Assembly: GCF_001536285.1 (NCBI RefSeq) | Contig: NZ_FAOZ01000035.1 | Location: forward strand, 1 to 64,000 | Origin: Parafrankia irregularis | GTDB taxonomy: Bacteria > Actinomycetota > Actinomycetes > Frankiales > Frankiaceae | Length of the DNA stretch: 64,000 nt | Direction of reading: 5' to 3' | Translations under genes and position numbers: made by a program | Part shown: piece after piece, positions 46,779 to 56,301 of the stretch | Layout: each line of letters starts with the position of its first letter | Numbering within the stretch: the first letter of the stretch is position 1 | The notes under the pieces: generated by a model | The model's database searches: none | Told to the model about the DNA's origin: nothing | The model's input: the letters and a program-made list of their open reading frames with translations, nothing else

Positions 46779-47107
46779 CCCCACCGGGTGGTGCTGTGTC
46801 ACCCCGCTGGTCCGCGCGGTCACCCTGTGGGTTCGCGAGATCCGACCGGGCAGCCAGGTCGGGCCACCGGGGGTGAGCCGCGCCACATCTCGGTGGCGTG
46901 ATGCGGCACAGTCGGCGTCGTGGAGCCCAGACAGGCCGCCTGCTCGTGAAAGACTGGACCCAGCCGGTACAGCTGTGCATGGGGGGCGTTCGTCCCCCCG
47001 ATGCGCAGTCGTTCCGGCTGGGCTCACCGGCCATGACGACGGCCACGCTCCTGCCGCCGCCATGCCGGGACCCTGGCGTCCGCAAGTCGTCGAAGAAGGG
47101 ACCTCGC
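46779..47107. other. intergenic region pepA-lpdA
   Basis: About 330 bp between two rightward genes. It contains the hairpin at 46973-47008 and an AAGGGA ribosome site just before lpdA. No additional gene was recognised; the open frame continuing upstream from lpdA lacks family residues. Confidence 0.35.
46973..47008. terminator. hairpin in the lpdA leader
   Basis: CTGTGCATGGGGGG at 46973-46986 pairs with CCCCCCGATGCGCAG at 46994-47008, with one bulged base and one G-U pair. It may end pepA transcription or form part of the lpdA 5' leader. Confidence 0.45.
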
Positions 47108-48490
<1,383 letters not shown>

Positions 48491-48574
48491 CCTGCGGTGC
48501 CCGCCGTTCGTCCCTGACAGCCCGACCGGGCAGCAGGGCGCGACGTCGGGCGCGACGAAGGAGTCGTTGTCAGA

Positions 48575-49993
48575 ATGTCAGTTTCCGTCACAATGCCCCG
48601 CCTCGGGGAGAGCGTCTCCGAGGGGACGGTCACCCGCTGGCTGAAGAAGGAAGGCGAGCGCGTCGAGGCCGACGAGCCGCTGCTGGAAGTAAGCACGGAC
48701 AAGGTCGACACCGAGATCCCCGCGCCGGCCTCCGGCATCCTCGGTTCGATCAAGGTTGCCGAGGACGAGACCGTCGAGGTCGGCGTCGAACTGGCCGTGA
48801 TCGAGGATGGTGCCGCCGCGGCTGCCGCCCCCAGCGCCCCGGCCGCGCAGCCCACGCCCGCCCCCGAGCCGCCGAAGGCAGTCGCTCCCCCGCCGCCGCC
48901 CGCGCCCACCCCGGCTCCGCCGCCCCCGCCGGCCCCGGCACCGGCCCCCGCGCCCGCGCCGACCCCGCCACCGCCGCCGGCCCCCGCTCCGGTTCCGTCG
49001 CAGGCTCCGGTCGCGGCGAGCACCGCGGACGCCAGCGCCGACGGCCTCGGCCGGTACGTCACGCCGCTGGTCCGCAAGATGGCCGCCGAGCTGGGTGTCG
49101 ACCTCGGCATCGTGACCGGCAGTGGGCCGGGGGGGCGCATCACCAAGCAGGACATCCAGGATGCGGCGAAGGCCCCGGCGGCTCCCGCCGCGCCCGCTCC
49201 CGTGCCCGCTGCCGCTGTCGCTCGCCCGGCAGCCGCGCCGGTGCCGGCCCCCGCGGCCGCCGCAGCCGCCGCCCGTGGGCGCACCGAGAAACTCACCCGC
49301 CTGCGCTCGCTCGTCGCCCGCCGGATGGTCGAGTCGCTGCAGATCAGCGCGCAGCTCACGACCGTCGTGGAGGCCGACGTCACGCGCATCGCGAAGCTGC
49401 GCGACCGGGCCAAGGCCGGGTTCCTGGCCCGCGAGGGCGTGAAGCTCTCCTTCCTGCCGTTCTTCGCCGTGGCCGCCTGCGAGGCGCTGCGCGAGCACCC
49501 GGTGATCAACTCCAGCATCGATCTGGAGGGCGGCACGGTCACCTACCACGACGCGGAGAACCTGGGTATCGCGGTCGACACCGACCGCGGGCTGGTCGTC
49601 CCGGTCATCCACAACGCCAGCGACCTGAACCTCAGCGGCATGGCACGCAAGATCGACGAGCTCGCCGCCCGCACCCGCGCCAACCAGGTGTCTCCGGACG
49701 ACCTGGGCGGTGGCACGTTCACGCTGACGAACACCGGCAGCCGGGGCGCGCTGTTCGACACCCCGATCCTCAACCAGCCGCAGGTGGCGATCCTGGGCAC
49801 CGGGTCGGTCGTCAAGCGGCCGGCCGTCGTCACGGACCCGGAGCTCGGTGAGGTCATCGCGGTTCGGTCGAAGGTCTACCTGGCCCTGACCTACGACCAC
49901 CGGATCGTCGACGGTGCCGACGCGGCCCGCTTCCTGACCGCGGTGGCGAGCCGTCTGGAGGAAGGTGCCTTCGAGGCCGAGCTCGGGCTGTAG
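48575..49993 (+). CDS. sucB: 2-oxo acid dehydrogenase E2 (dihydrolipoyl acyltransferase)
   Basis: A 472-residue protein with one lipoyl domain (residues 1-80; lipoylated Lys in [12 protein letters not shown]), a Pro/Ala linker of about 55 residues, an E3-binding domain ([20 protein letters not shown]), a second Ala/Pro linker, and the acyltransferase domain ending with the catalytic [14 protein letters not shown]. It could serve 2-oxoglutarate or pyruvate dehydrogenase; in actinobacteria the same E2 is often shared. It lies between lpdA and the lipoate biosynthesis genes further downstream. Confidence 0.92.
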
Positions 49994-53795: not shown

Positions 53796-53891
53796 CGTCC
53801 TCCCTGGCCTGAGACCGATCCGAAGCCGGTGGGACGAGCCACTCGTCCGTTGCCGGCCGGGCCGGTCGTCCCACCGGCGTACCCTCGGGAC

Positions 53892-54593
53892 GTGGATGTC
53901 CTGCAGTTGGGTGTCGTTCCCTATCACGAAGCCTGGGGCAGGCAGCGCGCGCTGGCCGAGGAGCGCCGTCACGGGCGCGGCGAGGACACGCTGATCCTCC
54001 TCGAGCATCCCGAGGTCTACACGGCGGGCCGGCGCACCGACCCCGCCGACCGCCCGGTGGACGGCGCGGAGGTCGTCGACGTCGACCGCGGCGGCAGCAT
54101 CACCTGGCATGGTCCCGGGCAGCTCGTGGGCTACCCGATCGTCCGGCTCCCGATGCCGCTGGACGTCGTCGCCTACGTCCGGATGCTGGAAGCCGGCCTG
54201 ATCGCGGTCTGCGCCGAGTTCGGCGTGGCGACCCGCCGGGTCGAGGGCCGCACCGGGGTCTGGACGGTGGACGGCACCCGCAAGCTCGCCGCCATCGGTG
54301 TCCGGGTGAGCTGGAAGGTCACCACACACGGCTTCGCGCTCAACTGCGACCCCGCCCTGGGCTCGTTCGGCCGGATCGTGCCGTGCGGGATCTCCGACGC
54401 GGGCGTGACCAGCCTCAGCCTGGAGCTGGGGCGCACGGTGACGGTGGCGGACGCCCGCCCGGTGGTGGAGCGCCACCTGACCGGCGCCATCACCGACTAC
54501 CTCGCTGCCGGCCGCGAGGCTCAGGCCCGCCGGCAGCCGAAGGCCGACGCACTGATCGGCGCCGGGAACATCGAAGGAGGAGCAGCCGGATGA
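53892..54593 (+). CDS. lipB: octanoyl-ACP:protein N-octanoyltransferase
   Basis: A 233-residue enzyme that transfers octanoyl from ACP to lipoyl domains. The pattern is [66 protein letters not shown] (catalytic Lys) and [17 protein letters not shown] (catalytic Cys). GTG start chosen to match the family; an upstream start in the same frame is less likely. Its stop overlaps the lipA ATG (ATGA). Confidence 0.93.
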
Positions 54594-55582
54594 CGGCCAC
54601 GCCAGTCGCGCCGGAGGGCCGGCCGCTGCTACGCCTCGAGGCCCGCAACGCCCAGACCCCGATCGAACGCAAACCACCCTGGATCCGCACCCGCCTGCGC
54701 ACCGGCCCCGAATACACCGACGTCCGCAGCCTCGTCCACGGCGCCGGCCTGCACACCGTCTGCGAAGAAGCCGGCTGCCCCAACATCTACGAATGCTGGG
54801 AAGACCGCGAGGCCACCTTCCTCATCGGCGGCGACACCTGCACCCGCCGCTGCGACTTCTGCCAGATCGACACCGGCCGCCCCGCCCCGTTGGACACCGA
54901 CGAACCACGCCGCGTCGCCGAATCCGTCACCACCATGGGCCTGCGCTACGCCACCGTCACCGGCGTCGCCCGCGACGACCTCCCCGACGGCGGTGCCTGG
55001 CTCTACGCCGAAACCGTCCGACAGATCCACACCCACTCCCCCGGCACCGGCGTCGAGGTCCTCATCCCCGACTTCGCCGGCAACCCCGACCAGCTCGACG
55101 AGGTCTTCACCGCCACCCCCGAGGTCCTCGCCCACAACCTCGAAACCGTCCCCAGGATCTTCCGCCGCATCCGGCCCGGCTTCCGCTACGAACGCTCCCT
55201 CGACGTCCTCACCCGCGCCCGCGCCGCGGGCCTCGTCACCAAGTCCAACCTCATCCTCGGCCTCGGCGAGACCGACGACGAGATCGCGCAAGCCATGACC
55301 GCCCTCCACGAGGCCGGCTGCGACCTGCTCACCATCACCCAGTACCTGCGCCCCACCCCCCGCCACCACCCCGTCGAACGCTGGGTACACCCCGACGAGT
55401 TCATCGCCTGGCAGCAACGCGGCACCGAGATGGGCTTCGCCGGCGTCCTGTCCGGCCCCCTCGTCCGCTCCTCCTACCGCGCCGGCCGCCTCTACCAGCA
55501 GGCGATTACATTCCGTAGTGAAACTGCCCGGGGTGAGGCGGTTACCTCCCAAAGTGTGTCGCACGACTCTCACACCGGGTGA
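54590..55582 (+). CDS. lipA: lipoyl synthase (radical SAM), with atypical C-terminal tail
   Basis: A 330-residue radical SAM enzyme that inserts two sulfurs into octanoyl groups. The auxiliary cluster Cys are in [12 protein letters not shown], the SAM cluster in CTRRCDFC, and the closing RSSYRAG carries the conserved Ser ligand. Codon use is odd: residues about 25-300 use nearly only NNC codons with CGC for Arg and frequent GAA, unlike the lipB neighbour. The last 26 residues ([12 protein letters not shown] onward) use AT-richer rare codons and exceed the usual family end. It starts inside the lipB stop codon, so coupling is intact. Confidence 0.93.
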
Positions 55583-55800
55583 CGAGTGCGCTGGTGATGA
55601 CTACCCCGGACGACTAGGCTCGTGCCTGCGTCACGCGGCGGTCACAAGACACGGGGCTCGCCGTGGCGTGGGCACCCCCGTCATCTCCGCCAACCGCGGG
55701 AGTGATCGGCGGCGCCCGCGCCCTTCACAGTCAGTGCTGTTCCGGCGGGGCACCGGTCCCGCCTCGGGCTCCACGACCGCGTCGGGAGGTCGTCGACACC

Positions 55801-56244
55801 GTGTTCCGCTCACTCCTCACCGCCCTTGAGGAACTGACTCTTCTCGTCCTGCCGCACGGCGGCCAGCGCACAGCTCGCCACAACGCCTGGCGGGCCGCCA
55901 CCGACCTGCACGTCACGACCGGCTATCGCTGGGTCGACCAGATCTCCGTCTCCGCCTTCGGCCTGGTGCCCGCCCCGGCGAACGCGTCCGTCCCGTCGCC
56001 GGCGGTCCCGCCGGCGACGACCGCCCACGCAGGCATACCCGCGGAGGCGAGGGCGGGTGCGCCGCTGGTCACCCGCCCGGTGGCAGCGGCCGCCGGGGGC
56101 GACTTCCCGGCGCCGCGCGAGCGGGAGTCGGCACCGCGGCCAGCGGCCGCCAGGGCCCCGGGAACCCGCGGCTCCACCGGGCGCGCCCCCAAGCCTCGGG
56201 TCTCCCCGCCGCGCGCCCGCGCCGCCGCCGCCGCGCGTTCCTGA
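55801..56244 (+). CDS. hypothetical protein (unknown, lipA-DUF4191 interval)
   Basis: A 147-residue protein. The first 45 residues look structured (FRSLLTALEELTLLVLPHGGQRTARHNAWRAATDLH); the remainder is Ala/Pro/Arg-rich and probably disordered. GTG start. I recognise no family. The ordered N-terminus with a helix and basic HNAWRA segment suggests a short binding module. Codon use is normal for the region, so it is likely real, but its function is unknown. Confidence 0.45.
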   Translation: MFRSLLTALEELTLLVLPHGGQRTARHNAWRAATDLHVTTGYRWVDQISVSAFGLVPAPANASVPSPAVPPATTAHAGIPAEARAGAPLVTRPVAAAAGGDFPAPRERESAPRPAAARAPGTRGSTGRAPKPRVSPPRARAAAAARS

Positions 56245-56301
56245 CCCGCAGGCGCCGACCGGGCCACCAGCCGGGCCCGCGAAGGCCGTAGGCTCGCGCC
56301 T

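Follow-up and report, generated by a model that had tools for sequence, protein, structure and literature searches.

The lipoyl synthase gene (lipA) of Parafrankia irregularis is a codon mosaic. In the window (the whole stretch of 64,000 nucleotides that was analysed), the body of this gene has a codon set of its own, with a consistent direction of change and definable limits; its protein falls within the genus, and the body carries an excess of change relative to that of the sister genome. We favour the explanation that the body was replaced by a diverged allele from the same genus over the evolution of its codons in place, and give it a probability of about one half.

The lipA gene, its setting and its codon mosaic

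The gene (54590..55582, forward strand) is intact and encodes a protein of 330 residues that matches PRK05481 and TIGR00510, the latter with 337.7 bits for a cut-off of 310.25, and so belongs to the family. The translation contains RSSY and, for each of the two clusters, the cysteine motif, whose roles we take to be the usual ones; this is a native and, judging by these motifs, working lipoyl synthase gene. Its neighbourhood is the usual actinomycete one, with the gene order of Streptomyces: lipB (53892..54593, forward strand) lies on one side, an SCO2195-like open reading frame (ORF) on the other, followed by a DUF4191 gene and, farther off, glnA. Family, motifs, neighbours and gene order are those of the lipA genes of Actinomycetes (TIGR00510, between lipB and SCO2195/DUF4191/RDD/glnA), from which the window gene differs in the codon set of its body and in a C-terminal extension of 25 codons found in the genus (g1) and in genus g5. 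The genes for dihydrolipoyl dehydrogenase (lpd) and an E2 component (sucB) lie at 46898-49990, upstream of lipB and lipA by a few kb, and make this a lipoate-related cluster.

This is the single lipA over the family cut-off in the genome bearing the window (9.5 Mb, hereafter G000), and a DNA search of the same genome returned, besides lipA, only short pieces (40 of 412 candidates scored). One congener, G004, has a second lipA on another contig (L170:3401-4324), with ordinary codon usage (C4, defined below, 0.50; GAA 0.18) and a protein about 73% identical to the window LipA. An open frame of 314 codons opposite lipA (54629-55573) was considered as an antisense gene and rejected as a mechanical outcome of the NNC codons. 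The region 53800-56300 has no Rfam match at gathering scores.

We quantified the bias with C4, i.e., C/(C+G) in four-fold codon boxes. The first 21 codons of lipA (54590..54652, forward strand) have ordinary usage and are followed by a body of 284 codons (54653..55504, forward strand) written in an extreme set of NNC codons and GAA, with CAG mostly kept. The C4 of the body (284-286 codons) is 0.93, with GAA at 12/21, GTC at 18/18 and CGC at 26/27, and that of the 20 codons ahead of it is 0.53, without a single GAA. The control neighbour lipB (206 codons read) is equally ordinary (C3 0.58, GAA 2/12), and in the tail of lipA the third positions are 32% C and 32% T (22 codons). A DUF222/HNH gene truncated at the left edge of the window, with its 3' part at 1-630, has a C4 of 0.82 and GAA at 3/4. 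The preliminary description had read all this correctly: a body of nearly only NNC codons with CGC for arginine and many GAA, an ordinary lipA start and lipB, and a similar bias in the DUF222/HNH gene.

The windowed computation of codon bias that it had proposed places lipA at the extreme of the genome. A sample of 1.32 Mb of G000, window included, yielded 808 gene-like ORFs with a median C4 of 0.52 and a 99th percentile of 0.70. The ORF holding lipA ranks first among them, whether taken whole (0.82, despite a wrongly long start) or by its best 150 codons (0.97), and the DUF222/HNH piece ranks second. Only three of the 808 exceed a C4 of 0.70 and a GAA fraction of 0.30 with at least five glutamate codons, a filter that excludes the DUF222/HNH piece (four such codons). 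None of 802 bulk ORFs attains the mobile-minus-bulk codon score of lipA, but the mobile-like set was chosen partly for its bias, which makes the good fit of lipA to it circular; the first lipA codons fit this set no better than the bulk set. The codon set of the body is not that of the highly expressed class: the genes for EF-Tu, RpoBC and ribosomal proteins of G000 mostly have a C4 of 0.4-0.65 and a GAA fraction of 0-0.3. A DDE transposase-type gene of the same genome (L201:9684-11081) also has a biased stretch (150-codon C4 0.85, GAA 0.62). The bias towards NNC and GAA is thus common to lipA and to mobile genes with atypical codons in high-GC actinomycetes, represented here by the DUF222/HNH and transposase-type genes. 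Unlike these, lipA belongs to the core genes, its protein is native and its neighbours are the usual ones.

Direction of the shift and signal of exchange

A protein search of 58 relatives gave 30 lipA loci to read, that of the window included. Only one of the other 29 genes has the shift, that of the sister genome G001 (C3 0.73, GAA 10/22); the remaining 28 have a C3 of 0.46-0.63 and GAA from 0 to 6/22. The direction of change was counted at sites where four congeners agree. At third positions, G000 and G001 have 34 differences in common, each of which replaces a G (by C in 26 cases, by A in 8), and no common change at the 107 sites where the congeners share a C. G000 alone has a further 14 losses of G and two of C, and G001 alone three and five. 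Differences at first and second positions, shared or specific to G000, number 17, of which 11 are losses of G; the third-position changes of lipB have mixed directions. Where the four congeners agree on a codon ending in G, the changes of G000 within four-fold boxes are to C and never to A. The 12 codons in which G000 acquired an A are 10 GAA, one AAA and one CAA (the CAA with a residue change), GAG having become GAA at 10 of 20 sites, and CAG was retained in 3/3. Since A appears only as GAA, AAA or CAA and CAG is retained, the target of the changes is a codon set and not plain mutation bias.

This one-way pattern, with all common differences losses of G, no shared C changed and the changes aimed at a codon set, is what one would expect if directional selection or a biased process towards NNC and GAA had altered the gene in place, with no imported allele. 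We regard this as a possible but tentative alternative. It gains from the presence of the same set in unrelated lipA genes, one of which (Actinoplanes TFC3) has a protein branch of zero length, and from the codon identity to congeners at shared residues, which in the body (0.61-0.65) is not far under that of its neighbours (lipB 0.70-0.74, DUF4191 0.57-0.70). It loses from the difference between this set and that of the highly expressed genes of G000, from the lack of preference for conserved residues (an Akashi-type test gave p <0.05 in one of eight biased genes), and from the extra amino-acid changes of G000, which it leaves unexplained.

These extra changes are specific to the body. Codon identity between G000 and G001 at shared residues is 0.86 in the body, 0.94 in lipB and 0.93 in DUF4191, and amino-acid identity is 0.94, 0.97 and 1.00, respectively. 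The excess divergence is confined to the body, although some flank windows are also low, down to 0.86. The terminal branches of G000 and G001 are 0.066 and 0.0028 in the LipA protein tree, 0.091 and 0.009 in the quick tree, and 0.027 and 0.0044 with DNA positions 1+2 of lipA; for six concatenated flank proteins they are 0.0019 and 0.0081. For the body, the branch of G000 thus exceeds that of G001 ~6- to 24-fold, and for the flanks the order is reversed. Among all changed sites, those specific to G000 are weakly clustered (runs P 0.036), and 30-codon windows reveal neither a peak nor a gap in the codon differences between the two genomes.

The comparison of lipA with its neighbours, which the preliminary description had called for, gives trees that lean in different directions, a weak conflict. 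The flank tree leans to genome G005 as sister (82/86) and rejects G003+G004 (p 0.006) but not G002 (p 0.21). For the LipA body the lean is to G002 (56/88), with G005 rejected weakly by the protein (p-AU 0.045) and not by DNA positions 1+2 (p 0.10), nor when G001 or G000 is left out (p 0.14 and 0.08). G001 has several residues in common with G002, so that partial exchange on its side is also possible. The long body branch of G000 and the different leanings of flank and body trees favour exchange within the genus, without amounting to proof. From these sequence comparisons, allele exchange rather than point changes in place most likely made the body.

Under exchange, the common ancestor of G000 and G001 would already have had codons ~22 to 305 in a G-poor set (NNC, GAA, CAG). 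A second replacement would then have affected the body of G000, through homologous recombination with a diverged allele of the same genus bearing a still more extreme set, and the flanks and the C-terminal extension would have remained native. The mirror image, in which G001 in part returned towards native alleles, could also apply. As the DUF222/HNH and transposase-type genes of G000 have the same bias, the codons of the donor allele may reflect life on a mobile element. Mosaic housekeeping genes produced by allelic replacement likewise have one internal segment that departs from the flanks and from the sister strain; in lipA, unlike in these, the departure is mostly one-way synonymous change and no donor was found.

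Shifted lipA genes in other lineages

The same codon set is found in the lipA genes of Actinoplanes TFC3, of two Rhodococcus plasmids, of Rhodococcus ARC_M6 and of loci L118 and L127. The TFC3 gene (L234:8687-9607), on its protein branch of zero length, comes first of 118 sampled ORFs, the lipA region having been included deliberately in the sample. The eight biased rows represent six changes on the quick tree and at least five by its starred branches, although the stars of a quick tree that contains long rows merit less trust. In each of the eight genes the bias is lower over codons 1-30 than over codons 61-90. Between lipA and its neighbours the contrast is clear in TFC3, the plasmid locus L146 and L118 and weak in ARC_M6 and L127, with L145 at the threshold; neighbours have part of the bias in L101 and L127, which weakens the contrast there. 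The lipA genes of the Rhodococcus megaplasmids (NZ_CP110470, NZ_CP070614) share the codon set and have more ordinary neighbours, but they form a separate protein lineage, and the NZ_CP070614 copy adjoins pyruvate dehydrogenase-type genes. At the megaplasmid locus L145, the shifted lipA lies near genes for ACC deaminase and of the pyruvate dehydrogenase type.

The frequency of such shifts was assessed with an even draw of 128 genomes of the class, of which nine were not read; G000 was kept apart, and loci under 60% GC (14/118) and one without neighbours were dropped. One of 103 lipA genes is shifted (L118), as against none of 308 neighbour ORFs (p 0.25). The 89 newly read loci contain no shifted gene among 74 lipA and 251 neighbour ORFs, and 29 genomes read earlier were added to reach the 1/103. 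Three other comparisons of biased lipA with other ORFs gave 2/80 against 1/314 (p 0.11; the 80 include L036-L039, which repeat relatives), 2/30 against 0/59 (p 0.11) and 2/29 against 0/61 (p 0.10). Loci L116-L144 and those on plasmids came from searches by DNA likeness to the window, which skews them towards such codons. The shift is rare and sporadic, and the comparisons for a special tendency of lipA are not significant. We found no paper on lipA codon mosaics by title or abstract in the literature searched.

A broader proposal would be that the lipA code has been rewritten repeatedly and independently in Actinomycetes to NNC, GAA and CAG with an unchanged protein lineage, through selection on translation or transcript that does not act on highly expressed genes; we hold it to be unlikely. 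Codon optimisation for high expression is a much weaker candidate still. LipA is consumed in its own reaction, and C-ending codons are often tied to high expression in high-GC bacteria, but the highly expressed genes of G000 mostly avoid GAA and have an ordinary C4, and the shift is absent from the lipA of 28 of 29 other relatives and of 102 of the 103 class genes evenly drawn.

As to the origin of the protein, a quick tree with 137 rows of LipA groups it with G001 (SH-aLRT 98) and then with G002 (91), inside the genus; a more careful tree, of 11 rows, has weak resolution and places it nowhere outside the genus. The lipA DNA is 93% identical to that of G001 and 84% to those of G002-G004, the next closest, with other family members up to 0.837 (the LipA body of Parafrankia colletiae, L036, is the same as that of G002). 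No closer allele turned up among the 30 loci read after the protein search of 58 relatives, and no donor allele in DNA searches of G000 itself, of six genomes of the genus, of 396 genomes of the phylum (two candidates scored each) or of plasmid and phage records. A phage or viral carrier was discarded: the single match to a phage record has 72.9% identity (MT835496), and a 35-base piece has no exact match in viral contigs.

Of the signs expected of distant acquisition, an atypical composition is present (first of 808 ORFs) and a protein grouping outside the genus is absent. With a protein nested in the genus and no closer allele, a distant donor is not supported. Plasmids do carry lipA, and the R. 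opacus plasmid gene, which has the same set, shares 0.857 of its codons at shared residues, but this is expected of any two genes on one codon set. Its protein is 0.757 identical to the window LipA, as against 0.87-0.89 for congeners other than G001, and the SH-aLRT of 98 for G000 with G001 nests the window LipA in the genus. A body taken from a distant actinobacterium, e.g., from a Rhodococcus-type plasmid, is thus highly improbable. Of the earlier suggestion of an acquired or recombined body, exchange or remodelling relative to the flanks stands (a bias that among the 29 other relatives only G001 has, a long branch in G000), and acquisition from afar does not. Just as improbable is selection for a weakly structured or Rho-loading (C-rich, G-poor) messenger RNA, since the weak folding of the G000 gene (mean energy per base -0.27, against -0.43 to -0.45 in four congeners) is mostly due to composition, and codon order, slightly less structured than in codon-preserving shuffles for G000 (z 1.8) and TFC3 (z 2.15), gives z values of 0.55 in G001, -0.96 in R. 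opacus and -2.06 in G003, whose gene is an ordinary one.

The C-terminal extension and the region downstream

The extension comprises 25 codons past YQQA (55505..55579, forward strand) and is conserved in g1 and g5. The distance from ERKP to the stop is 305 residues in all six g1 genomes and in 11 of 13 g5 loci (304 and 310 in the other two); in eight g6 loci it varies from 288 to 307. The tail is thus neither absent nor random in sister strains. The preliminary description had noted its AT-richness rightly (32% T at third positions), but had taken it for over-long and for read-through into old intergenic DNA, which its nearly constant length and related sequence in both genera contradict. It had also regarded a bias and a tail common to all orthologues as the mark of selection rather than transfer: the tail is conserved in g1 and g5, and the bias recurs only in G001 among the 29 relatives.

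Within the tail, a conserved DNA pattern that overlaps the code (AAAGTGTG-n7-ACTCTCAC; 55551..55573, forward strand) is a candidate regulatory element. Its TCTCAC (55568-55573) is invariant in all 17 aligned loci (of 19 in g1 and g5), and TCT makes up only 1.9% of the serine codons in the G000 sample. The pattern has one exact copy in the genome, and its five matches with three mismatches are no better than those of a control pattern. Past the stop lies a hypothetical promoter-like pair, CTGGTG (55591-55596) and TAGGCT (55615-55620), on the forward strand (55591..55620), which is largely conserved in the alignment and was not picked up by a scan for the sigma-70 consensus. It is followed by a GlnR-like box, GTCAC-n6-GTCAC (55630..55645, forward strand), that begins 50 bases past the start of the stop codon and is the sole match in the window to the GTnAC-n6-GTnAC consensus; 12 of 17 loci have a similar box within 120 bases of the lipA stop. 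PMC3087709 gives this consensus for GlnR of S. venezuelae and names the SCO2195 homologue as a GlnR target with such a site. The four-site a-b-a-b pattern of S. coelicolor GlnR, with three mismatches allowed, has no match at the lipA region.

The ORF that follows (55801..56244, forward strand) shows weak similarity to the SCO2195 family, whose proteins are regulated by GlnR (NCBIfam NF050183, E 0.00015, 21.5 bits, under the cut-off of 85). The AT-richer codons of the tail are most likely due to its overlap with the upstream region of this ORF. The stretch 55551-55645 resembles a promoter region under nitrogen control that lies partly within coding sequence. The tail itself is a conserved extension, and its DNA probably doubles as upstream region of the GlnR-linked ORF.

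Odd codon usage is often taken as a sign of transfer between distant organisms. Judged by its codons alone, the most C-biased ORF of our sample would be misread, since the protein that it encodes belongs to its own genus. The tail of lipA is a coding extension that seemingly carries DNA of the upstream region of the next gene. If the similar shifts in unrelated lipA genes have a single cause, they would offer a clean case for drivers of synonymous choice beyond expression and origin.
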